Below are positions 46,764-58,122 of a stretch of 64,000 nt of DNA, in pieces. Each line of letters opens with the position of its first letter. The stretch's first letter is position 1. Made by a program: the position numbers and the translations under genes. The DNA is taken from the NCBI RefSeq assembly GCF_039542905.1, contig NZ_BAABIS010000001.1, positions 5,704,001-5,768,000 of the forward strand. The letters run 5' to 3'. Below the pieces are notes generated by a model. It had not been told where the DNA came from. It was given only the letters and a program-made list of their open reading frames with translations, and did not search any database. The stretch is from Kitasatospora terrestris. GTDB taxonomy: Bacteria; Actinomycetota; Actinomycetes; Streptomycetales; Streptomycetaceae.

Positions 46764-47858
46764 GTGAGTGAGACTTCCGCAGCCCCCACCGGTCAGCAGC
46801 CCGAGGCCGCCGCGCGTCGCGGCGCCGCCCACGACTCCGTCTTCCTGCGCGCCGCCCGATTCGAGCCGGTGCCGCACACCCCGGTGTGGTTCATGCGCCA
46901 GGCCGGCCGCTCGCTGCCCGAGTACCTGAAGGTGCGCGAGGGCATCCCGATGCTCGAGTCCTGCATGCGGCCGGAGCTGGTCAAGGAGATCACCCTGCAG
47001 CCGGTCCGCCGGCACAAGGTGGACGCCGCGATCTTCTTCTCCGACATCGTCGTCCCGCTCAAGGCGGTCGGCATCGACGTCGACATCAAGCCCGGTGTCG
47101 GCCCGGTCATCGCCGACCCGATCCGCACCGCCGAGGACCTCCGGCGGCTGCGTCCGCTCGAGCCCGACGACATGCCGTACATCACCGAGGCGGTCGGCCT
47201 GCTCGTCGACGAGCTCGGCAGCACCCCGCTGATCGGCTTCGCCGGCGCCCCCTTCACCCTGGCCAGCTACCTGGTCGAGGGCGGGCCCTCGCGGACGTAC
47301 GAGAACACCAAGGCCATGATGTACGGCGAGCCCGAGCTGTGGGCCGCCCTGGTCGACCGGCTGGCGGAGATCACCGCCGCCTTCCTGAAGATCCAGATCG
47401 AGGCCGGTGCCTCGGCCGTCCAGCTCTTCGACTCCTGGGCCGGCGCGCTCGCCCCCGACGAGTACCGCCGCTCGGTGCTGCCCGCCTCCACCAAGGTCTT
47501 CGACGCGGTCACCCCGTACGGCGTGCCGAAGATCCACTTCGGTGTCAACACCGGCGAACTGCTCGGCCTAATGGGCCAGGCCGGCGCCGACATCGTCGGC
47601 GTCGACTGGCGGGTCCCGCTCAACGTCGCCGCCGACCGGGTCGGCCCCGGCAAGGGCCTGCAGGGCAACCTCGACCCCGCCGTCCTCTACGCCCCCACCC
47701 ACGTCGTGGAGACCAAGGCCCGCGAGGTGCTGCACGCCGCCCAGGCGATCGGCGACAGCGGCCACATCTTCAACCTCGGCCACGGCGTCATGCCGAGCAT
47801 GGACCCGGACGCGCTGACCCGCCTGGTCGCCTTCGTCCACGAGGCCAGCGCCCGCTGA
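46764..47858 (+). CDS. hemE: Uroporphyrinogen decarboxylase
   Basis: The 364-residue enzyme converts uroporphyrinogen III to coproporphyrinogen III in haem synthesis. It has the N-terminal signature [16 protein letters not shown] and [28 protein letters not shown], with the catalytic Asp in FFSDI. Later come [17 protein letters not shown] and [15 protein letters not shown]. The GTG start lacks a clear SD. hemG and hemQ lie about 1.2 kb downstream on the same strand, separated by the opposite-strand lipoprotein gene. Confidence 0.95.
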
Positions 47859-47865
47859 CCCGGCC

Positions 47866-47895
47866 GCCGGGCGGGGGCGTCGGCCCCCACCCGGC
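47866..47895. terminator. Bidirectional terminator between hemE and the DUF4349 gene
   Basis: GCCGGGCGGGGGC pairs with GCCCCCACCCGGC (one mismatch) around GTCG. It fills the gap between the two convergent stop codons. Confidence 0.75.
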
Positions 47896-47900
47896 GCGGC

Positions 47901-48896
47901 TCACCGCCGCTCGGCCGCGTCCGGCTGCCCGGCCGGCTCCTCCTGCGGCTGCTCCGGCCCCGGCTCCGGGTGCTCCGACCGCTGGGCCGGCAGCGCCGGC
48001 CGCCGACGGGCACCGCGCCGCAGCCACCACACCAGGCCCAGCAGCGGCGCCGCCACCAGCAGGAACGGCGCGATCGCCGCCAGCGCCATCAGCAGCACCT
48101 TCACCACGGTCACCAGCGCGTCCCAGCCGCCCGACAGCGCACCGCCCACCGATGCCCAGAAGCCCTTCTCGGGCTCGGCCGCCGGCAGCGACGGCTTCGC
48201 GCGCTCCGCCACCAGCCGCAGCGTCACCGTCGACAGCGAGGTCCGCGCCGCCAGCTCCTGCTGCTGCCGCTGCAGGCTCTCCAGGTCCGCCTCACGGCGG
48301 GTCAGCTCGCCCTCCAGCGAGACCACCTCGGCCAGCGACTTCGCCTCCGCCATCAGCGCCCGCACCCGGTCCACGCTGGCGCGCTGCGACTTCAGCCGGC
48401 TCTCCACGTCCGCCACCTGCTGGGTGACGTCGTCCGCCTGGCTGTTCAGGTCCAGCGTGGCGCCGAGCGCCGCCAGCGCGTCCAGCGTCCTGCGGTGCTC
48501 CGCGGACGGCACCTTCAGGGTCAGCGTGGTGCCGTCCACCGCGCCGTCCCCGCGGCCGTTCGAACTCTCGCCCGACACGTAGCCGCCCGCCGCCTCCAGC
48601 AGCGCCAGCGCCTTGCCGCGCGCCGTCGCCACGTTCTCCACCCGGACGGTCAGCTGCGCCTTGTACGCGATCACCCGCGGCGCCGCGGGGGCGACCGTCC
48701 CGGCGTCCTTCGCCGCCGGTCCGCCGCTCGCCGCGGCCTTCTCCCCGCCCGCCGCCTGCGGCGCCGCCGCGCCGTTCGCCACCGCGGGCTTCGCGGCGTC
48801 GCTGGAGCTCGTCCCGCCCCCGGCGCTGCAGCCGCCCGCCAGCACCACCGCCGCGACCGCCGCCGCCACCGCAACTCTCCGGCCCCGCACGTCCAT
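47901..48896 (-). CDS. DUF4349 lipoprotein
   Basis: The 331-residue lipoprotein has lipobox VLAGGC, lipidated at Cys23, a long Ala/Gly/Ser linker, and a DUF4349 domain (about 75-300). That domain includes KAQLTVRVENVATARGKALALLEAAGGYVSGES and a central coiled coil (about 165-225, VADVESRLKSQRASVDRVRALMAEAKSLAEVVSLEGEL). One transmembrane helix follows near residue 275, then a basic patch and a Pro/Glu-rich cytoplasmic tail. It is therefore tethered at both ends. Its role is unknown; a link to envelope stress or transport is only a guess. Confidence 0.85.
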   Translation of the reverse strand: MDVRGRRVAVAAAVAAVVLAGGCSAGGGTSSSDAAKPAVANGAAAPQAAGGEKAAASGGPAAKDAGTVAPAAPRVIAYKAQLTVRVENVATARGKALALLEAAGGYVSGESSNGRGDGAVDGTTLTLKVPSAEHRRTLDALAALGATLDLNSQADDVTQQVADVESRLKSQRASVDRVRALMAEAKSLAEVVSLEGELTRREADLESLQRQQQELAARTSLSTVTLRLVAERAKPSLPAAEPEKGFWASVGGALSGGWDALVTVVKVLLMALAAIAPFLLVAAPLLGLVWWLRRGARRRPALPAQRSEHPEPGPEQPQEEPAGQPDAAERR

Positions 48897-49089
48897 TCGC
48901 TCTCCCCCTCGCCTCGGCGCACGCCCCTCGCGCACCCCGTCCACCCTTGGACGGCCCGACCCCCGCACCGGATCCCACCCGCCCGGTACCGGCTCGATCA
49001 CATCCCGGCCACACCCCGGTCTCGGGCTCGTGGTCGAGCTCGACGCGCTGGTGCAGGGGAAGCGGGTAAAGGCTGAGAGACTGCCGGGC

Positions 49090-50499
49090 ATGGCAGAACC
49101 TCATGTCGTGGTGGTCGGTGGCGGGATCGCGGGGCTCGCGGCGGCGGTGTTCCTGAGCGCGGGGCCCCGCCGGGTGACGCTGCTGGAGGCGTCCGGGCGG
49201 GTCGGCGGGAAGCTGCGGGCCGGGGAGGTCGGCGGGGTCCGGGTGGACCTCGGGGCCGAGTCGGTGCTGGCCCGGCGGCCCGAGGCGGTGGAGCTCGCCC
49301 GGCTGGTGGGCCTGGGGGAGGAGCTGGAGCCGCCGAGCACCGCCAGGGCGGCGATCTGGACCGGCGGGGGGCTGCGGCCCATCCCCACCGGCCAGGTGAT
49401 GGGTGTCCCCGGCGACCTGGAGGCGCTGGCCGCGTCCGGGGTGCTCTCGGCGGAGGGCCTGGAGCGGGCCCGGCACGAGCGCCCGACCGGACCGGTCGCC
49501 GACGACGTCCCGCTCGGCGCGTACGTCGGCGCCGCGCTCGGCCCCGAGGTGGTGCAGCGGCTGGTCGAGCCGCTGCTCGGCGGCGTGTACGCGGGCCGGA
49601 CCGACCAGCTGTCGCTGCGCGCGGCCGTGCCGCAGCTGCTGGCGATCGCCCGCGCGGGCGGCTCGCTGGTGGCCGGGGTCCGTGAGCTGACCTCCCGGGC
49701 GGCGGCGGCCGGCCCGGTCTTCCAGGGTCTGCGCGGCGGCCTGGGCACCCTGCCCGAGGCGGCCGAGGCCCATCTGCGCAAGGCCGGGGTGGACCTGCGC
49801 ACCGACCACCCGGTCGACGAGCTGCGCCGGACGCCGACGGGCTGGCGGGTGGCCTCCGGCGGCTCGGTGCTGGAGGCGGACGCCGTGGTGCTGGCGGTGC
49901 CGGCGCCGCAGGCCGCCCGGCTGGTCGAGGCCGAGCTGCCGGGCGCGGCGGCCGAGCTGCGGCAGGTCGAGTACGCGGGGATGGCGCTGGTGACGATGGC
50001 GTTCCGCCGCGCGGACCTGGCCGACAGCCCGCTGACCGGCAGCGGCTTCCTGGTCCCGCCGGTGGACGGCCGGCAGATCAAGGCCTCCACCTTCTCCTCC
50101 AACAAGTGGGGCTGGCTGGCGCGTTCCGCGCCGGACGCCTTCCTGCTGCGCACCTCGCTCGGCCGGCACCGCGAGGAGGCCGCGCTGGACCTCCCGGACG
50201 AGGAGCTGGTGGCCCGCTCGCTGGCGGACCTCGGCGCGGCGGTCGGCCTGCGGGCCACCCCGTACGCGACCGCGGTGACCCGGTGGCGCGGCGGGCTGCC
50301 GCAGTACCCGGTGGGCCACCTGGAGCGGGTCGAGCGGATCCGCGCCCAGGTCGCGGGCGTCGGCGGACTGGCCGTCTGCGGCGCCGCGTACGACGGCGTG
50401 GGCATCCCCGCCGTGATCGCCAGTGCCCGGCGCGCGGTCGACGGGTTGTCGACCCCGACGGCGGGCGGACCCGTCGCAGAAGGGACAATGGGCGCATGA
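49090..50499 (+). CDS. hemG: Coproporphyrinogen III / protoporphyrinogen oxidase
   Basis: The 469-residue FAD enzyme begins [21 protein letters not shown] (dinucleotide-binding motif) followed by [28 protein letters not shown]. It ends [26 protein letters not shown], typical of HemY/CgoX. In actinobacteria this enzyme oxidises coproporphyrinogen III to coproporphyrin III. HemQ follows, and its start overlaps this stop as ATGA, so the two are translationally coupled. It is cytoplasmic or membrane-associated. It is also called hemY or cgoX. Confidence 0.92.
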
Positions 50500-51206
50500 C
50501 CGATAGCACTGAGCAGCCCGTGAAGAAGAAGGCCCGCGACCTCAACCAGGTCATCCGCTACACCATGTGGTCGGTGTTCAAGCTCAAGGGTGACCTCCCC
50601 GAGGACCGCGCCGCCCTGGCCGCCGAGGTCGACGAGCTGTTCGAGCAGCTGGCCGCGAAGGACGTCACCGTCCGCGGCACCTACGACGTGTCCGGCCTGC
50701 GCGCCGACGCGGACGTCATGGTCTGGTGGCACGCGGAGAACTCCGACGACCTGCAGGAGGCGTACAACCGCTTCCGCCGCACCGCCGTCGGCCGCCTGCT
50801 GGAGCCGGTCTGGTCGAACATGGCGCTGCACCGCCCCGCCGAGTTCAACAAGTCGCACATCCCCGCGTTCCTCGCCGACGAGCGGGCCCGCGACTACGTG
50901 TGCGTGTACCCCTTCGTGCGTTCCTACGAGTGGTACCTGCTGCCGGACGAGGAGCGCCGGGCGATGCTCGCCGAGCACGGCATGATGGCCCGCGGCTACC
51001 CGGACGTCCGCGCCAACACCGTCGCCTCCTTCGCGCTCGGCGACTACGAGTGGCTGCTCGCCTTCGAGGCGGACGAGCTGCACCGGATCGTCGACCTGAT
51101 GCGCGACCTGCGCCCCTCCCGGGCCCGCCTGCACGTCCGCGAAGAGGTCCCGTTCTTCACCGGCCGCCGCAAGCCGGTCGCCGAGCTGCTCAACGGCCTG
51201 GCGTAA
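50496..51206 (+). CDS. hemQ: Coproheme decarboxylase HemQ (chlorite-dismutase fold)
   Basis: The 236-residue protein turns coproheme III into haem b by two oxidative decarboxylations, the last step of the coproporphyrin-dependent pathway. Recognisable parts are [16 protein letters not shown] at the N-terminus, [64 protein letters not shown] (with the likely haem-ligand His in AEHG), and [27 protein letters not shown]. It overlaps hemG by four bases. A bidirectional terminator follows. Confidence 0.95.
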
Positions 51207-51238: not shown

Positions 51239-51264
51239 CGGTCGGGGGCAGCGGCCCCCGACCG
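51239..51264. terminator. Bidirectional terminator between hemQ and the TIGR04222 operon
   Basis: A perfect 11-bp stem (CGGTCGGGGGC and its complement) with an AGCG loop lies between two convergent stop codons. Confidence 0.85.
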
Positions 51265-51265
51265 C

Positions 51266-52039
51266 TCAGCCGCGGAGCGCGGCGCGCAGCCTCGCGTCGG
51301 GAACGGCGTCGGGGCCGACCATCGCGACGGCGGTGAGGAGCTCGCGCTCGGCGTCGTCCGCCGGCCCGTACTGGCGGGGGATCCGGGCCGTCCGCAGCAC
51401 CTCCTGGCCGGCGGGGGCGGCCCACGCGGTGTAGGCGTGCACGTCGACCCGGGCCATCAGCAGCGTCCCGCCGGTGAGCACCAGCGGCAGCGCGAACCAG
51501 GCGACGGTCGCCCCGGCCTGCCCGCTGCCGGGGGCGGCCAGCACCAGCGCCGCGACCAGCAGCCCGGTGGCCAGCAGCAGCGCGTGCCGGACCTGACGGA
51601 TGGCCAGCAGCGCACTCTCCCGGACGGTCGCCGGAGTGGCGAGACCGGCCATGGTCAGCCGCTCGCCGATGTCGCGGACGGTGGGGTGGGCGGCGAGCGC
51701 GGCCCGCAGCGCGGCCGTCCGGCACTGCCCTTCGGGGCCGATCTCGCCGATCAGCGCGCGTTCCAGCCGGCTACGCCCCTGCGGGTCGACGACGGTGGTC
51801 CAACCGGTGTGGGCGAGGTGCAGGCGCCCCCGCCCGGCCATCCGGACGAGGGCGAGGTCGACCACCCGGGTGGGGCCGCCGGCCAGGTAGGCGGTCTCGA
51901 ACAGACCGACGCCGACGGCCTCCTCCGGCCGGGCCGGACCGATCGCGGACAGCGAGTCTGCCGTGGCGGCGACCCGGACCAGCCGCAGGCAGGAGAACAC
52001 TGCGGCGGCACAGGCCGGAATCAGGAGGATCACCCACAT
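51266..52039 (-). CDS. TIGR04222 domain membrane protein, tail-less paralogue
   Basis: The 257-residue protein has an N-terminal helix (MWVILLIPACAAAVFSCL) and the TIGR04222 domain (FETAYLAGGPTRVVDLALVRMAGRGRLHLA). Two further helices lie near residues 133-180, followed by a soluble part ending DARLRAALRG. It is the paralogue of the gene at 52119-53159 and ends exactly where that protein's Cys-rich tail begins. It is the last gene of the DUF692 operon. The ATG has no good ribosome site within the 79-bp gap. It may hold or chaperone the tailed paralogue, but that is conjecture. Confidence 0.75.
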   Translation of the reverse strand: MWVILLIPACAAAVFSCLRLVRVAATADSLSAIGPARPEEAVGVGLFETAYLAGGPTRVVDLALVRMAGRGRLHLAHTGWTTVVDPQGRSRLERALIGEIGPEGQCRTAALRAALAAHPTVRDIGERLTMAGLATPATVRESALLAIRQVRHALLLATGLLVAALVLAAPGSGQAGATVAWFALPLVLTGGTLLMARVDVHAYTAWAAPAGQEVLRTARIPRQYGPADDAERELLTAVAMVGPDAVPDARLRAALRG

Positions 52040-52118
52040 GGGATTTTTCTAGACCCGTCCGGCTCCCCGGGAAACGGAACCCCGGGTCGCGATACCGAAC
52101 TGTGACCGCCGGCCGCGG

Positions 52119-53159
52119 TCACGAACTGCCGCATCCGCCGCCGCCGCAGCTCGACCCGCAGGAGCTGGACGACCCGCAGGAGCTGCTCGACGAGGACCCG
52201 CAGGAGCTGGACGAGGAGCCGCAGGAGCTGCTCGACGAGGACCCGCACGAGCTCGACGACGAACCGCAGCTCGACGAGGACCCGCAGCTGGTGGTCGACC
52301 CGCAGGAGCTGCTCGACGAGGAGCCGCACCAGTACCCGGAGTCGGAGGACGAGCCGGAGCCGCCGCCCGTGTTCGTGCCGCCGACCAGCGGCCGGGGCAG
52401 CAGGGCGGCCCGCAGTTCGGCGTCCTCCAGGACGGCCACCCCGCCGAGGGCGAGCGCGCCCAGCAGCAGGGCGTCCTCGGGGCCGGCGTCGCGCGGCCGC
52501 CACGAGCCGCCGTCGCGGACCATGCCGAGCTGGCGGGCGCCCGCGGGGGTGACCCGCGAGCGGGGCAGCCGGGTGACCCGCAGCACGACCGCCAGGAACA
52601 CCACCAGCGCGCCGAAGACGAACAGCGGGGGAGTGGTGGCGTCCCGCTCGGCGATCGGCTGGACCATCCAGCCGATCATGGTCACCAGCCCGAGCACGAC
52701 CGTCAGCAGCAGCGCCAGCCACATCAGCCGGCGGGCCCAGGCGGCAGCCCGCAGCCGGTCCGGGCGGCGCATCAGGCCGCGGTCGGCGAGCCGGTCGCCG
52801 ATCCGCTGCACCTCGGGGTCGCGCATCACGGCGCGGCGCAGCGCGTTCAGGTCGCGGCTGCCCCGGCCGGCCGCGGTGACCACCACCGCCTCGATCGCGT
52901 CCCGGGGCACCGGATCGGTGACGGTGACCCTGCGGTCGCGCGAGATGACCACCCGGCCCTCGCGCTCCATCCGGACCAGCGCGACCTCGACCACCCGGCC
53001 CGGGCCACCGGCCAGGAACGCGGTCTCCAGGAGCGGCAGCCCGATGCCGACCAGCCCCTGCGGGGCGGGCGCCCGCAGCGCCCGGGCCCTGGTGACGCCG
53101 ACGGCGACCAGGGCGATCAGCGCCACCGCGCAGGCGATGGCGAACTCAACGTGCCACAT
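52119..53159 (-). CDS. TIGR04222 domain membrane protein with Cys-Gly-Ser repeat tail (putative DUF692 substrate)
   Basis: A 346-residue protein with an N-terminal helix (about 5-24), the TIGR04222 domain (LLETAFLAGGPGRVVEVALVRMEREGRVVI), two helices near 147-195, and a soluble segment. The last 69 residues (278-346) are only Cys, Gly, Ser and two Thr. Eleven Cys occur as Cys-Gly followed mostly by 4-6 Ser, ending CGSSCGGGGCGSS. The DNA is correspondingly repetitive. TIGR04222 proteins with such tails are known to sit near DUF692 genes. The tail is a plausible site for cysteine modification by the DUF692 enzyme two genes upstream. GGGGGA lies 7 nt before the ATG. Confidence 0.85.
   Translation of the reverse strand: MWHVEFAIACAVALIALVAVGVTRARALRAPAPQGLVGIGLPLLETAFLAGGPGRVVEVALVRMEREGRVVISRDRRVTVTDPVPRDAIEAVVVTAAGRGSRDLNALRRAVMRDPEVQRIGDRLADRGLMRRPDRLRAAAWARRLMWLALLLTVVLGLVTMIGWMVQPIAERDATTPPLFVFGALVVFLAVVLRVTRLPRSRVTPAGARQLGMVRDGGSWRPRDAGPEDALLLGALALGGVAVLEDAELRAALLPRPLVGGTNTGGGSGSSSDSGYWCGSSSSSSCGSTTSCGSSSSCGSSSSSCGSSSSSSCGSSSSSCGSSSSSSCGSSSSCGSSCGGGGCGSS
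52122..52328 (-). repeat. Degenerate in-frame repeats encoding the Cys-Gly-Ser tail
   Basis: On the minus strand, units of TGC-GGG (or GGC) followed by 4-6 serine codons, alternating AGC, TCG, TCC and TCG, run for 69 codons. Unit lengths are 8, 6, 6, 7, 8, 7, 8, 6, 4, 5 and 4 codons. Mixed Ser codon use shows selection on the protein rather than simple slippage. Confidence 0.85.
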
Positions 53160-53260
53160 CGTCAGTCCCCCGTGTCGTTCAGTGGTGCACAGTGCTCGTA
53201 GGTGCGTTCAGGCGGGTATCCGGCGGTTCCGGAGCCCCGCCGGGTACGGGCGCGGCGAGG

Positions 53261-53710
53261 TCAGTGACGGCGGCCGGCCAGCAGCCGGTTCCAGCGGCTG
53301 CCGCCGGGCCGCAGCCAGTGCCGCAGCGCCCGGCGCCGGTCGGCGGCCGGGTCGGTGCCCAGCGCCCACTCGGCGAAGGCCCGGGCGTCGGCCCGGTAAC
53401 CGCCGGTCTGCGGGTGGCCCGCCGCGTACCGCAGGAACAGCGGGCCGTAGTCCGCGCCCAGGATCGCGGCGAGCTCCGGCGCGAGGTGCGCGACGGTGTC
53501 CCGGCGCTTGGCGGCAAGGCCCTCCGTCTGGACGCGCACCTGCTCCGCGTCGAAGCCGGCCGGCACCGGGCCGCCGGCGGTCAGCGCCGCCAGCAGCTCG
53601 GTCTGCCGACGGGCCAGCGAGGCCCGGGCCAGCAGCAGCTCGGCGTCCTCCCGCTCGCGCACCAGGTACTCGAAGCGTCCGTCGTGCTGGGACGCGATGT
53701 GATCAGACAT
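53261..53710 (-). CDS. Small partner protein of the DUF692 enzyme (DUF2063-like)
   Basis: A 149-residue soluble protein. The central part (about 30-115: [32 protein letters not shown], then [44 protein letters not shown]) has the layout of the N-terminal half of DUF2063/BufC-type partners, which dock precursor peptides to MNIO enzymes. The C-terminal DUF2063 half is missing, replaced by a basic tail ([24 protein letters not shown]). Its ATG overlaps the end of the DUF692 gene by 8 bp, so the two are surely co-translated. The similarity is by eye. Confidence 0.7.
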
Positions 53711-54539
53711 GCTGGGGCACCCCCTGCCCTTCGTAGACCCGTCGGACGGCGGCCAGTTCGCCGGCCAGCTCGGCCGGCGGCGGGAAGCGGTCGTCCCGCT
53801 CCAGCAGCACCCCGGCCGGGGTGGTCCGCCGGCACAGCTCGGCGAGCACCTCCAGCACCGGCTCGGTCACCGGGTGGGCGTGCGTGTCGTGCCACACCCC
53901 GTCCCGCTCCACCCCGCCCGCCACGTGCACGTACGCGATCGCCTCCAGCGGCAGCCGGTCCAGCTCGGCGGCGACGTCCACCCCCAGGTTGACCCGGTTG
54001 GTGTGCAGGTTGGCGACGTCGACCAGCAGCTTCACCCCGGTCCGCTCGACCAGCTCGGCGAGGAACTGGGCCTCGGTCAGCTCGTCGTCCGGCCAGGCCA
54101 GGTGGGCGGCGATGTTCTCCAGCGCCAGCGGCACCGGCAGCTCACGCTGCGCGATCCGGACGTTCGCCGCCACCACCGCCAGCGACTCCCGGGTCCGCGG
54201 CACCGGCAGCAGGTGACCCGCCTCCAGCCCGCCCGCCCGGACGAACGCCAGGTGCTCGGTGACCAGCGGCGCCCCCAGCGCCAGCGCGGTCTCCGCGAGT
54301 CGCGCCAGCCGCCCCGCGTCCGGCACCTCGGCGCCGCCGAGACCGAGCGAGACCCCGTGCGGGACGACCGTGACGCCCCGCTCCCGCAACAGCCCCAGCG
54401 ACTCCGGCAGGTGGCCGGCGCAGACGTTCTCCGCCACCACCTCGACCCAGTCCACACCGTTCAGCCGCTCGACCACGGTGTCGATCTCGGCTCGCCATCC
54501 GAGACCGACACCGAGTCGGAACGCCGGCGGTACGTCCAT
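53703..54539 (-). CDS. DUF692 family multinuclear iron oxidative enzyme (MNIO)
   Basis: The 278-residue TIM-barrel protein has the family's metal-ligand motifs in order: [67 protein letters not shown] and [15 protein letters not shown]692/MNIO enzymes bind two or three iron ions and oxidise cysteines (or other residues) in precursor peptides. Products include oxazolone-thioamides, thiooxazoles and excised beta-carbons. ATG 54539 has GGGGGAG 7 nt upstream. It is the first gene of a four-gene operon with a partner protein and a Cys-tailed membrane protein. It is divergent from a GNAT gene. Confidence 0.9.
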
Positions 54540-54716
54540 CGGAAACTCCCCCTCTCCAGTGGGCCCCGCCGTACGCTCCTGCCCCCCCGTTGCCGAGAGT
54601 GGCGCCCCGGCGCCCCGGTGCCAAGCCGTCACGGCGAAACTCAGAGCTGAACTTGAGCTTTCCGTGCAGAGAACCCAAATTCAGAGGCGATTCAGTGCGC
54701 CGCTGGTTAACGTGAC

Positions 54717-55947: not shown

Positions 55948-58086
55948 TCAGGCCACGTCCACGCCGTGGGTGCGGGCGAGGCCGGCGAGGCCGTCGGACC
56001 AGCCCTGGCCGACGGCGCGGAGCTTCCAGGTGCCGTTGTGCCGGTAGAGCTCGGCGACGAGCATCGCGGAGATCGCAGGGTCGGCCGGGGGCCGGAAGCG
56101 CCAGGCGGCGGGGCCGGACTGGATCTCCAGCTCGGCGTCGCCGAGGTCGGCGCAGGTCAGCCCGGTGTCGGTGTCCATGTTGACGGAGACGGCGACCCGC
56201 CGGACGGCGTCCGGGAGGTCGCCGAGGCGGACGTTCGCGGTGCCGTCCAGCGGACGCAGCCGCACCGCACCGTCCGCCGCGGTCGGCTGGTGGTAGAAGA
56301 CGAAGTCGCCGTCGTCGCGGACCACGCCGTCGGCGGTGAGCAGGAGCAGGGTGAGGTCGGCCTCCGCGCCGGTGGTGCGGAAGGCGACGGCGACCTCCTC
56401 GGCGGGCAGCGGCGCGTTCTCGCCGGGGGAGAGGACGGCCGGTTCGGCCCGGCGCTCCGCGGGCGGGACGGGGGAGCCCAGCCGGCCGCGCAGGCCGTGT
56501 TCCTGCAGCAGGGCGACCAGCATCGGCCCGTCGACGAGGGTGAGCGGCTTGCCGTCGACCCAGCGTCGGGAGCCGGGTCCGAAGCCCGAGGTGGTGACCA
56601 GGATGCCGCGGTTGGCGCCCTGCCGGGACATGGTCGCGTCCAGGTCGCGGACGGCGGTCGGCGGCACGGTCTTGCGGTAGCGCTTGGCCTGGATGACGAT
56701 CCGCCCGCCGGTGATCGGGTCGGGGTCCTCGGCGAGGACGTCGACGCCCTCGTCGCCGCTGCGCGCGGTGGTGCGGGTGACCAGGCCGCGCCGCCGGAAG
56801 AGTTCGGCGATCAGTTCCTCGAAGGCGATCGGGTCCATGGTGAACAGGTCCGGCTCGTCCGAGCCGTCCGCGGTGCCGGGGGATCCGGCGGGCGCGGCCG
56901 CGGGGGCCGGGGCGACGGAGCCGACGGAGGCGGTGGAGCGTTCGACCTTGACCGGCTCGGCCTTCTCGGGGCGGGCGGAGAGCCGCCCGCGGAGCCCGTC
57001 GACCAGGCAGTCCACCGGCTCGACCCGGTCCAGCGCGACGGCGAGCAGCTCGGCCCGCTCCACGGCGACCGACACCAGGCAGCGCCGCTGTTCCCGGCCG
57101 GTCGCCGGGTCGACCGCGGTGAGTACGCCGTTGAGGGCGACGGAGTCGAGCAGCCCGGTCTCGTCGGCCCGGAACAGCACGTCCAGCACCCGCAGCGCGC
57201 ACTGCGCGAGCACCGCGCGGTACAGCGCCTTGCGTTCGGTGGCCGGGCGGGCCACTTCGGCCTCGCTGTCGTCGGTCTTCACGTAGCGGTAGCGGGCGAC
57301 GGCCGGCACCACCTCGTACGGCGGCAGCTCCCATTCGACGACCAGCTGGCGGGCGCCGGCGTCCCAGGCCAGTTCGCATTCGACGGGGAAGCCCTCGGGC
57401 CAGTCGTCGCGCCAGCGCAGCGCGGCCTCGAACAGCTCGACGACGGCCTCGGCGGCGCCGGCCCGGACCTGTTCGGCGAGTTGCGCGGCCTGCCCGACCT
57501 GTCCGGCCGCGAGCTGCCGGCGTTCGGCGGCCCAGGCCTCGTAGCCGGCCCGGTACTCGGCGAGCCGCCGTTGCCGGTCCTGCTCGGCGGCCTGGGCCGC
57601 GTACCAGTCGTGCTCGAAGCGGGCCCGGGCCTGTGCGGCCTGCTCGTCCCACCAGCGGCGGGCCGCGGGGTCGTAGGCCTGGGCGCCGGTGAGCGGCGGG
57701 ACGAGGTACCGGTTCTGGTCCGGCATCGGGACGGGCGTGCCGAGCGGGCCGGGGTCGAAGGGCGGCACCTCGACCCGTCCGGAGGTCTCGGAGAGCCGGA
57801 AGGCGGGGCCGGACAGCCCGGCGGCGAGGACGCCGCGCAGTTCGGCGACGCGGGCGTCCAGCTCGGCGGTGCGCGCGGCGAGGTCGGCCTCGCGCCCCTG
57901 CTGGTACGCCCGCAGCGCCTCCTTCTCGCCGCGCGCGGCGGCGCGCTGCGCCTCGCGCTGGGCCCGCTCGTACTGGCGGCGCTGTTCGGCGGCCGCCCGG
58001 CGCTGTTCCTCCTCGCGCCGGTGCTGCTGCCGCTGCGCCTCCGCGAGCATGCCCAGCAACCCCGCCGAACCCTGACGCCGCGCCAC
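55948..58086 (-). CDS. Mrr-type restriction endonuclease fused to a TerD domain
   Basis: A 712-residue cytoplasmic protein. Residues 1-90 are a charged coiled coil, and about 90-400 form a uncharacterised middle region. About 418-530 is an Mrr-like nuclease domain (FEELIAELFRRRGLVTRTTARSGDEGVDVLAE, then GGRIVIQAKRYRKTVPPTAVRDLDATM). This has the catalytic Asp, Gln-Ala-Lys and supporting residues of the PD-(D/E)xK fold. About 550-712 is a TerD domain (VRDDGDFVFYHQPTAADGAVRL, then VSVNMDTDTGLTCADLGDAELEI). GTG 58086 is chosen because AGGAGG lies 6 nt upstream; the ATG at 58101 contains that site. A DNA-damage or phage-response role is inferred from the domains. Confidence 0.85.
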   Translation of the reverse strand: MARRQGSAGLLGMLAEAQRQQHRREEEQRRAAAEQRRQYERAQREAQRAAARGEKEALRAYQQGREADLAARTAELDARVAELRGVLAAGLSGPAFRLSETSGRVEVPPFDPGPLGTPVPMPDQNRYLVPPLTGAQAYDPAARRWWDEQAAQARARFEHDWYAAQAAEQDRQRRLAEYRAGYEAWAAERRQLAAGQVGQAAQLAEQVRAGAAEAVVELFEAALRWRDDWPEGFPVECELAWDAGARQLVVEWELPPYEVVPAVARYRYVKTDDSEAEVARPATERKALYRAVLAQCALRVLDVLFRADETGLLDSVALNGVLTAVDPATGREQRRCLVSVAVERAELLAVALDRVEPVDCLVDGLRGRLSARPEKAEPVKVERSTASVGSVAPAPAAAPAGSPGTADGSDEPDLFTMDPIAFEELIAELFRRRGLVTRTTARSGDEGVDVLAEDPDPITGGRIVIQAKRYRKTVPPTAVRDLDATMSRQGANRGILVTTSGFGPGSRRWVDGKPLTLVDGPMLVALLQEHGLRGRLGSPVPPAERRAEPAVLSPGENAPLPAEEVAVAFRTTGAEADLTLLLLTADGVVRDDGDFVFYHQPTAADGAVRLRPLDGTANVRLGDLPDAVRRVAVSVNMDTDTGLTCADLGDAELEIQSGPAAWRFRPPADPAISAMLVAELYRHNGTWKLRAVGQGWSDGLAGLARTHGVDVA

Positions 58087-58097
58087 CCCGGTCCTCC

Positions 58098-58122
58098 TCA
58101 TACGGTCAGATGATCAGTATGA
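58098..58122 (-). promoter_or_regulatory. Inverted repeat upstream of the Mrr-TerD gene
   Basis: TCATAC and GTATGA are separated by 13 bp, just upstream of the AGGAGG ribosome site. The position between promoter and start suits an operator. No regulator is assigned. Confidence 0.4.

Follow-up and report, generated by a model that had tools for sequence, protein, structure and literature searches.

What does an MNIO (DUF692) iron enzyme modify when the gene behind its partner encodes, not a small precursor peptide, but a membrane protein ending in a long run of cysteine, glycine and serine? This question is raised by four genes on the minus strand (51266-54539) of a 64,000-nucleotide stretch of DNA from the soil bacterium Kitasatospora terrestris (contig NZ_BAABIS010000001.1, positions 5,704,001 to 5,768,000; this whole stretch is called the window). 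From comparisons of sequences, we consider it likely that the tail is modified by the MNIO enzyme and its partner. The tail is the best candidate substrate because enzyme, partner and tail are present or absent together, because its Cys residues follow a Cys-Gly pattern, and because the partner is encoded beside the enzyme or fused with it. The features concerned are the following.

53703-54539, minus strand: MNIO (DUF692, PF05114) enzyme, 278 amino acids, ATG start; PF05114 270 bits, cut-off 25
53261-53710, minus strand: small all-helical MNIO partner (PME-type 2 like), 149 amino acids; 8-bp overlap with the MNIO gene
52119-53159, minus strand: TIGR04222 membrane protein with Cys-Gly-Ser tail, 346 amino acids, putative substrate; NCBIfam 112.9 bits, cut-off 43
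52122-52328, minus strand: Cys-Gly-Ser tail, residues 278-346, with 11 Cys each followed by Gly; from the sequence
51266-52039, minus strand: tail-less TIGR04222 paralogue, 257 amino acids; 115.4 bits, same cut-off

The intergenic gaps are 101 bp and 79 bp. The coordinates agree with those of a first-pass annotation, and its description of the locus (four genes on one strand, the 8-bp overlap, a 69-residue tail of C, G, S and two T, a paralogue without a tail) was borne out by the sequence and by the family scores.

The TIGR04222/MNIO/PME-type 2 gene set has already been described (Antoine et al. 2025, PMC12452194). In the passages available from that paper, more than 3,500 TIGR04222 proteins were collected, mostly from Actinomycetota, with Ser/Gly regions and interspersed Cys, often near MNIO genes and PME-type 2 partners, and a subset was thought likely to be MNIO-modified; 490 of 1,372 genomes with TIGR04222 had no MNIO genes. 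The association of low-complexity TIGR04222 tails with DUF692 genes, which the first-pass annotation had taken as known, is therefore published, and our locus shares with those clusters the enzyme family, the Cys/Gly/Ser-tailed membrane family as proposed substrate and the type of partner. As far as these passages show, what is new here is the joint presence and absence of the components, the independence of the tail-less gene, native enzyme-partner fusions, an upstream element and an opposite topology. No characterised product of this architecture was found in the literature searched, where TIGR04222 is mentioned by that paper and by one Pseudonocardia paper of 2016.

The Cys-Gly-Ser tail

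The last 69 residues of the tailed protein comprise 42 Ser, 14 Gly, 11 Cys and 2 Thr, and a Gly stands after each Cys. Within the locus only the product of 52119-53159 has a Gly/Ser-rich C-terminus of this kind, with several Cys. The Ser residues of the tail are encoded by a mixture of four codons, so it is not a simple DNA repeat. Over 102 tails Gly follows Cys at 657 of 757 positions (87%), compared with 29% expected from composition, which argues that the pattern did not arise by chance, and 87 of these tails end in the motif C-[GS]2-6-CG. The named loci, the top 80 of 262 and with a bias towards relatives of the window, come in many cases from the same genomes as the other set; there, Gly follows Cys at 453 of 579 positions.

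The composition of 90 distinct tails, taken from the first Cys on, is 42% Ser, 34% Gly, 14% Cys and 2.7% His; Lys, Arg, Glu and large hydrophobic residues hardly occur. At least three His are present in 22 of the tails, and the most frequent distances from one Cys to another are 7 and 6.

The enzyme and its partner

Nine residues of the MNIO protein (H61, H96, E141, D174, N177, H205, D218, H220 and E247) are kept in 131 or 132 of 132 aligned rows, a set in which some genomes are counted twice through short and long loci. Conserved His, Glu, Asp and Asn residues of this type are presumably metal-binding in MNIO enzymes. The best NCBIfam model is BufB at 195 bits, below its cut-off of 310, and the equivalog cut-offs of HvfB (155 bits against 360), MbnB (34.5 against 325), ApyH (121 against 400) and ChrH (53.8 against 600) were not reached either. 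TglH (8hci_D) was matched by sequence with an E value of 1.9e-24.

The partner protein matches no Pfam or NCBIfam model, and DUF2063 is absent from the ten families matched by any of 35 partner members at E values up to 10. Lying behind the MNIO gene and free of the DUF2063 Pfam signature, it is like the PME-type 2 partners. Its AlphaFold2 (AF2) model is all-helical, with a predicted local distance difference test score (pLDDT) of 90. When 129 chains were aligned with this model, TglI (8hci_A) ranked first (Z 6.1, 117 residues aligned, 3.6 Å) and MbnC (7dz9_C) second (Z 5.7, 82 residues, 3.2 Å), and the next row had a Z of 4.3. Both TglI and MbnC are MNIO partners, and TglH is chain D of the same entry as TglI. 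Foldseek alone gave no significant match to the partner, the best E value being 1.8, with MbnC second at 2.5.

Enzyme and partner are joined in one reading frame in 49 of the 132 MNIO rows. This fusion is found in 36 of 67 named loci longer than 12 kb, in 3 of 55 Kitasatospora loci with the gene cassette, and in 21 of 23 genomes of a group, g2, which is probably Streptomyces, the sister genus, judging by its likeness to the named loci. These native fusions are the natural counterpart of the artificial HvfB-HvfC fusion that appears in the available part of PMC13419390. One-frame MNIO-partner genes are seen in L208-L222 and in named Streptomyces loci, with many g2 loci having no Cys tail nearby. 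In another locus (L180, 5520-6536) the Cys tail of a TIGR04222 frame runs into what by eye appears to be a partner remnant, and the MNIO gene lies elsewhere in the genome.

Joint presence and absence of enzyme and tail

We read the locus beside hemQ in 69 Kitasatospora genomes of at least 95% completeness (68 loci and the window). MNIO gene, partner and Cys-tailed TIGR04222 gene are all present there in 55 genomes and all absent in 14, and the tail-less paralogue is present in all 69. Because the tail-less gene is kept in the 14 genomes without the other three, it is independent of the enzyme, a correction to the four-gene operon of the first-pass annotation. Some of the 14 genomes have other MNIO genes elsewhere. 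Among the genomes that do carry the cassette, three have one more TIGR04222 protein, with 5 to 7 Cys in its end, at a distance from the cassette (L016, at a contig end, L071 and L078), and L081 has two.

A wider comparison used a sample of 246 genomes from the class, in which tails were scored by a 30-residue window and at most 11 first-look candidates were scored per genome, so that absence of TIGR04222 elsewhere in a genome is unproven. TIGR04222 proteins over the cut-off were found in 72 of these genomes and MNIO in 62. Among the 72, tail and MNIO occur together in 39, a tail without MNIO in 3, MNIO without a tail in 13 and neither in 17. One of the 39 (G112) was moved to that class on account of a Cys-Gly end in a protein that the profile had missed; on the uncorrected counts (38, 3, 14 and 17) the Fisher p value is 1.0e-5. 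The first-pass annotation had named frequent Cys tails in genomes without DUF692 as the observation that would speak against it; the 3 cases among 42 tails each have an innocent explanation, since in G264 the start of an MNIO gene lies beside the tail and is cut by the contig end, in G349 the tail frame continues through N's, and in G445 two Cys fall in the scored window and none in the last 45 residues. Of the nine genomes that lack MNIO and have an end rich in Gly or Asp (G228, G242, G252, G277, G286, G331, G363, G390 and G445), none shows a Cys within the last 45 residues. In five genomes (G276, G284, G338, G391 and G416) the association is in trans, because the gene for the Cys-tailed protein is remote from the MNIO gene or sits on another contig.

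Proposed mechanism

We propose that the MNIO enzyme, together with the small helical protein that is its partner, would oxidise the Cys-Gly sites in the low-complexity C-terminal tail of the adjacent TIGR04222 protein, with 5-thiooxazoles as the most likely result (a four-electron oxidation that removes 4 H per site). The tail would stay uncut on its membrane protein, probably on the cytoplasmic side, where the cytosolic enzyme could reach it in place. What results would be a polymer tethered to the membrane that binds soft metals, most likely copper. Taken as a whole, with a tail that is modified, cytoplasmic, uncut and metal-binding, this scheme has in our judgement an even chance of being right.

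With regard to the chemistry, 5-thiooxazole appears the likeliest product because BufB is the NCBIfam model closest to the window MNIO, and because FonBC and HvfBC make 5-thiooxazoles. According to the available passages, FonBC is an MNIO pair that prefers the Cys-Gly dyad and whose product binds copper (PMC13097082), and the product of HvfBC has been reassigned to 5-thiooxazole (PMC13419390). These are now the nearest characterised products, and they displace the oxazolone-thioamide that had first been taken as a model. By analogy, 5-thiooxazole formation on the tail is about evenly poised, and the modified tail may equally well bind metal or not. A cytoplasmic-face polymer with up to about a dozen 5-thiooxazoles, acting as an intracellular, membrane-tethered sponge or sensor for copper or another soft metal, is a tentative suggestion. 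If the scheme were true, MNIO chemistry would extend from peptides to the permanent modification of cellular proteins, and thiooxazole metal buffering would not be confined to the periplasm or the outside.

Captophorins, bufferins and oxazolin (BufABC, HvfABC, FonABC) are likewise made by an MNIO enzyme and a partner oxidising Cys, and FonA and HvfA have repeated Cys-Gly sites. Their precursors have Sec signal peptides and DUF2063 (PME-type 1) partners, whereas here the putative substrate is an integral membrane protein and the partner is short and helical, and the tailed protein has neither a DUF2282 match nor an EGKCG motif. The methanobactin (MbnABC) and 3-thiaglutamate (TglHI) systems also combine an MNIO enzyme with a small partner, and the predicted fold of the window partner resembles MbnC and TglI; unlike the window, these systems have small peptide substrates, and the MbnB model scores far below its cut-off here.

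Membrane topology of the tail

In the AF2 model of the tailed protein an N-terminal helix is followed by a soluble domain, and helices 2-28, 133-166 and 178-195 fit membrane helices, with low confidence from about residue 263. Foldseek returned no match with an E value below 1.6 for this protein. For the charge distribution we reduced 224 TIGR04222 proteins to 86 at 60% identity and counted the 45 that have exactly three hydrophobic segments. In 43 of the 45 (equal in 1, less in 1), the stretches that follow helices 1 and 3 carry more Lys and Arg than do the N-terminus and the loop between helices 2 and 3. When the stretch after helix 3 alone is compared with that loop, these residues are more numerous in 36, tied in 8 and fewer in 1. 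The TIGR04222 profile also matches that of DUF2207 (probability 96.7, E 4.6e-10, 122 columns including the helix hairpin), and Pfam confirms one DUF2207 member (L091). DUF2207 proteins resemble TIGR04222 over this hairpin, start with a signal-peptide-like segment, show the same charge pattern and have a Gly/Ser-rich C-terminal tail. They differ by the large N-terminal domain behind that first segment and by the scarcity of Cys, of which the last 60 residues contain at most one in each of the nine members aligned. The charge bias and the likeness to DUF2207 suggest, with somewhat better than even support, that the tail is on the cytoplasmic side, and of the surface or membrane polymer first suggested, the surface position is accordingly given up in favour of a probable one on the cytoplasmic face.

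Against this placement stand two points. The topology count leaves out 41 of the 86 proteins, which have other numbers of segments (24 of them four), and a genuine fourth membrane helix would place the tail outside. Antoine et al. 2025 put the tail in the periplasm, so that our topology is probably the opposite of the published one; in the passages available, topology prediction and AF2 models are read as periplasmic and bufferin precursors carry Sec signal peptides (PMC12452194). In that case the chemistry could be the same: the enzyme would act in the cytoplasm, ahead of membrane insertion or while it proceeds, and the tail would end up on the outside in the manner of a tethered bufferin. 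We consider this rather unlikely, although it is the alternative that fares best: the excess of Lys and Arg after helix 3 and the likeness to DUF2207 argue against it, and the fourth segment is weak in most of the 39 members measured, with a mean hydropathy of 1.30 compared with 2.09-2.31 for the other segments and only 5 reaching 1.8. Because of this weak hydropathy the fourth segment is probably not a membrane helix, and a cytoplasmic tail remains our preferred placement.

A kinship of the soluble part with GOLPH3/GPP34 was considered and set aside as at most suggestive. Comparison of the TIGR04222 and GPP34 profiles gave a probability of 71.6 (E 3.5e-5, 76 columns), against a baseline of 0.2 for TIGR04222 and the partner family profile, and DUF2207 against GPP34 also gave 0.2. 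A Pfam GPP34 match was obtained in 2 of 40 members (best E 0.0028). Over residues 39-258, VIA gave Z values of 6.3-6.6 to four GOLPH3/Vps74 entries, and many unrelated helical chains score higher. Such a likeness would fit a cytoplasmic tail, weakly.

Enzymes without a Cys-rich tail

Several results count against the proposed scheme. In Kitasatospora, a tree of HemQ, HemG and HemE explains the absence of the cassette by two changes, one in a clade of 13 and one in a single genome, so that the linkage rests on two independent events and not on fourteen. In g2, no Cys-rich tail was found in 15 of the 23 MNIO-bearing genomes; in one of them (G374) two contig ends divide the locus and a gene may be missing, so that 14 are certain as far as the locus itself goes. 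Conserved residues of the enzyme are intact in every one of the 14 tail-less g2 loci that were checked (the 15 less L199). In a further genome (G329, coded f59), MNIO and partner lie beside a TIGR04222 protein with a Cys-free tail. The Z values of the partner fold are all below 8 and are no proof of kinship. Finally, a rescan for TIGR04222 found, beyond the copies at the tail-less loci, four further proteins over the cut-off (in G200, G214, G294 and G303), each with one Cys at a Gly-rich end.

Sixteen genomes were covered by this rescan (G329 and the 15 g2 genomes without a tail), in which the candidates were scored completely or almost completely, and 23 genomes were scanned with a distant relative. 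No Cys-rich carrier came out, so a tail acting in trans was dropped as an explanation. Five matches below the cut-off were viewed (L365, L366, L371, L377 and L380, the first being the known gene of G329), and a weakly similar carrier is possible among the rest. A small gene with six Cys near the g2 loci was also discarded as a substrate, because it is present both with and without tails. L074 and L080 had no profile match and, read by hand, no Cys-rich tail. Short, distant TIGR04222-like proteins with a single Cys and a Gly-rich C-terminus were seen in four tail-less g2 genomes (L110, L368, L369 and L370).

The tail-less g2 enzymes may have either another substrate or a lineage in which the tail was lost first. 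More generally, MNIO and partner might have a different substrate, or modify the tail in certain lineages only, and the tail would then be an unmodified thiol tail for metal binding or redox reactions that happens to share the operon. The g2 genomes with intact enzymes point in this direction, as does the upstream element described below, which is also kept ahead of several tail-less loci. We nevertheless think it unlikely, since Cys tails without MNIO are so few and explainable, since MNIO-less genomes have Gly- or Asp-rich ends free of Cys, and since plain thiols leave the Cys-Gly rule unexplained. The first proposal, an enzyme that modifies the attached tail, is partly supported: it keeps its best candidate substrate and is weakened by the 15 g2 genomes. 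Natural controls exist in the Kitasatospora species that lack the cassette and in the sister-genus loci that lack the tail.

Fate of the tail

To our knowledge the characterised MNIO products are peptides, either free or exported (bufferins, captophorins, methanobactins), and by this precedent the tail might be cut off and released, as a bufferin-like ribosomally synthesised and post-translationally modified peptide with a membrane protein as its leader. This seems improbable, because Pfam and NCBIfam matches reveal no protease or exporter among the four genes, and inspection by eye showed no conserved cleavage site where the helical part passes into the tail. For the same lack of a protease or exporter, an attached product is the simplest reading, in agreement with the first-pass annotation.

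A neutral, functionless low-complexity repeat might be argued from the variable length and Cys number of the tail (3 to 13 over the 90 tails), and is hardly credible given the Cys-Gly excess, the recurrent end motif, the mixed Ser codons and the absence of the tail in Kitasatospora only together with the enzyme.

Upstream element, termination and neighbouring genes

Two further features flank the operon.

54640-54658, minus strand: conserved 19-bp upstream element, GCTCAAGT-N3-GCTCTGAG, likely regulator site; from a pattern search
51239-51264, no strand: 11-bp G+C hairpin without a U-run, between the convergent hemQ and the tail-less gene

The pattern CTCAARTNNNGCTCTGAG is found exactly in 52 of 55 Kitasatospora cassette loci, the window included, and in none of 14 cassette-less loci. 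Among upstream stretches of named loci not labelled Kitasatospora, mostly Streptomyces, counterparts were found as CCTCAAAT in 36 of 61 and as CTCTGAAC in 44 of 61. Upstream regions bearing the element or its variant are those of the window, L017-L070 and L288-L336. The element is likely a regulator site. The full GCTCAAGT-N3-GCTCTGAG element has one exact match in its own genome, and no regulon is visible there, as allowing up to 3 mismatches gives 34 matches compared with 45 for a reversed control. An RNA element was rejected, the one Rfam match being at chance level (17.3 bits against a gathering threshold of 50), and we read the element as a DNA site. A plasmid search gave two partial matches.

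The locus had been described as ending at a terminator. A perfect hairpin does lie immediately 3' of the last stop codon, and the 61-nucleotide stretch around it folds with -41.3 kcal/mol (z -2.1; 5 of 200 shuffles fold equally well), but it has no U-run, and a terminator scan gave no site, so the description holds in part.

Convergent to the operon are hemE, a protoporphyrinogen oxidase gene and hemQ (46767-51203; hemQ 372 bits), and hemQ adjoins the operon locus in all 69 Kitasatospora loci and in 61 of 67 named loci longer than 12 kb. On the other side, between the MNIO operon and msrB, a gene at 55948-58101 encodes a protein of 717 amino acids with an Mrr restriction endonuclease domain and a C-terminal TerD domain, and this gene was seen in 27 of 82 loci.

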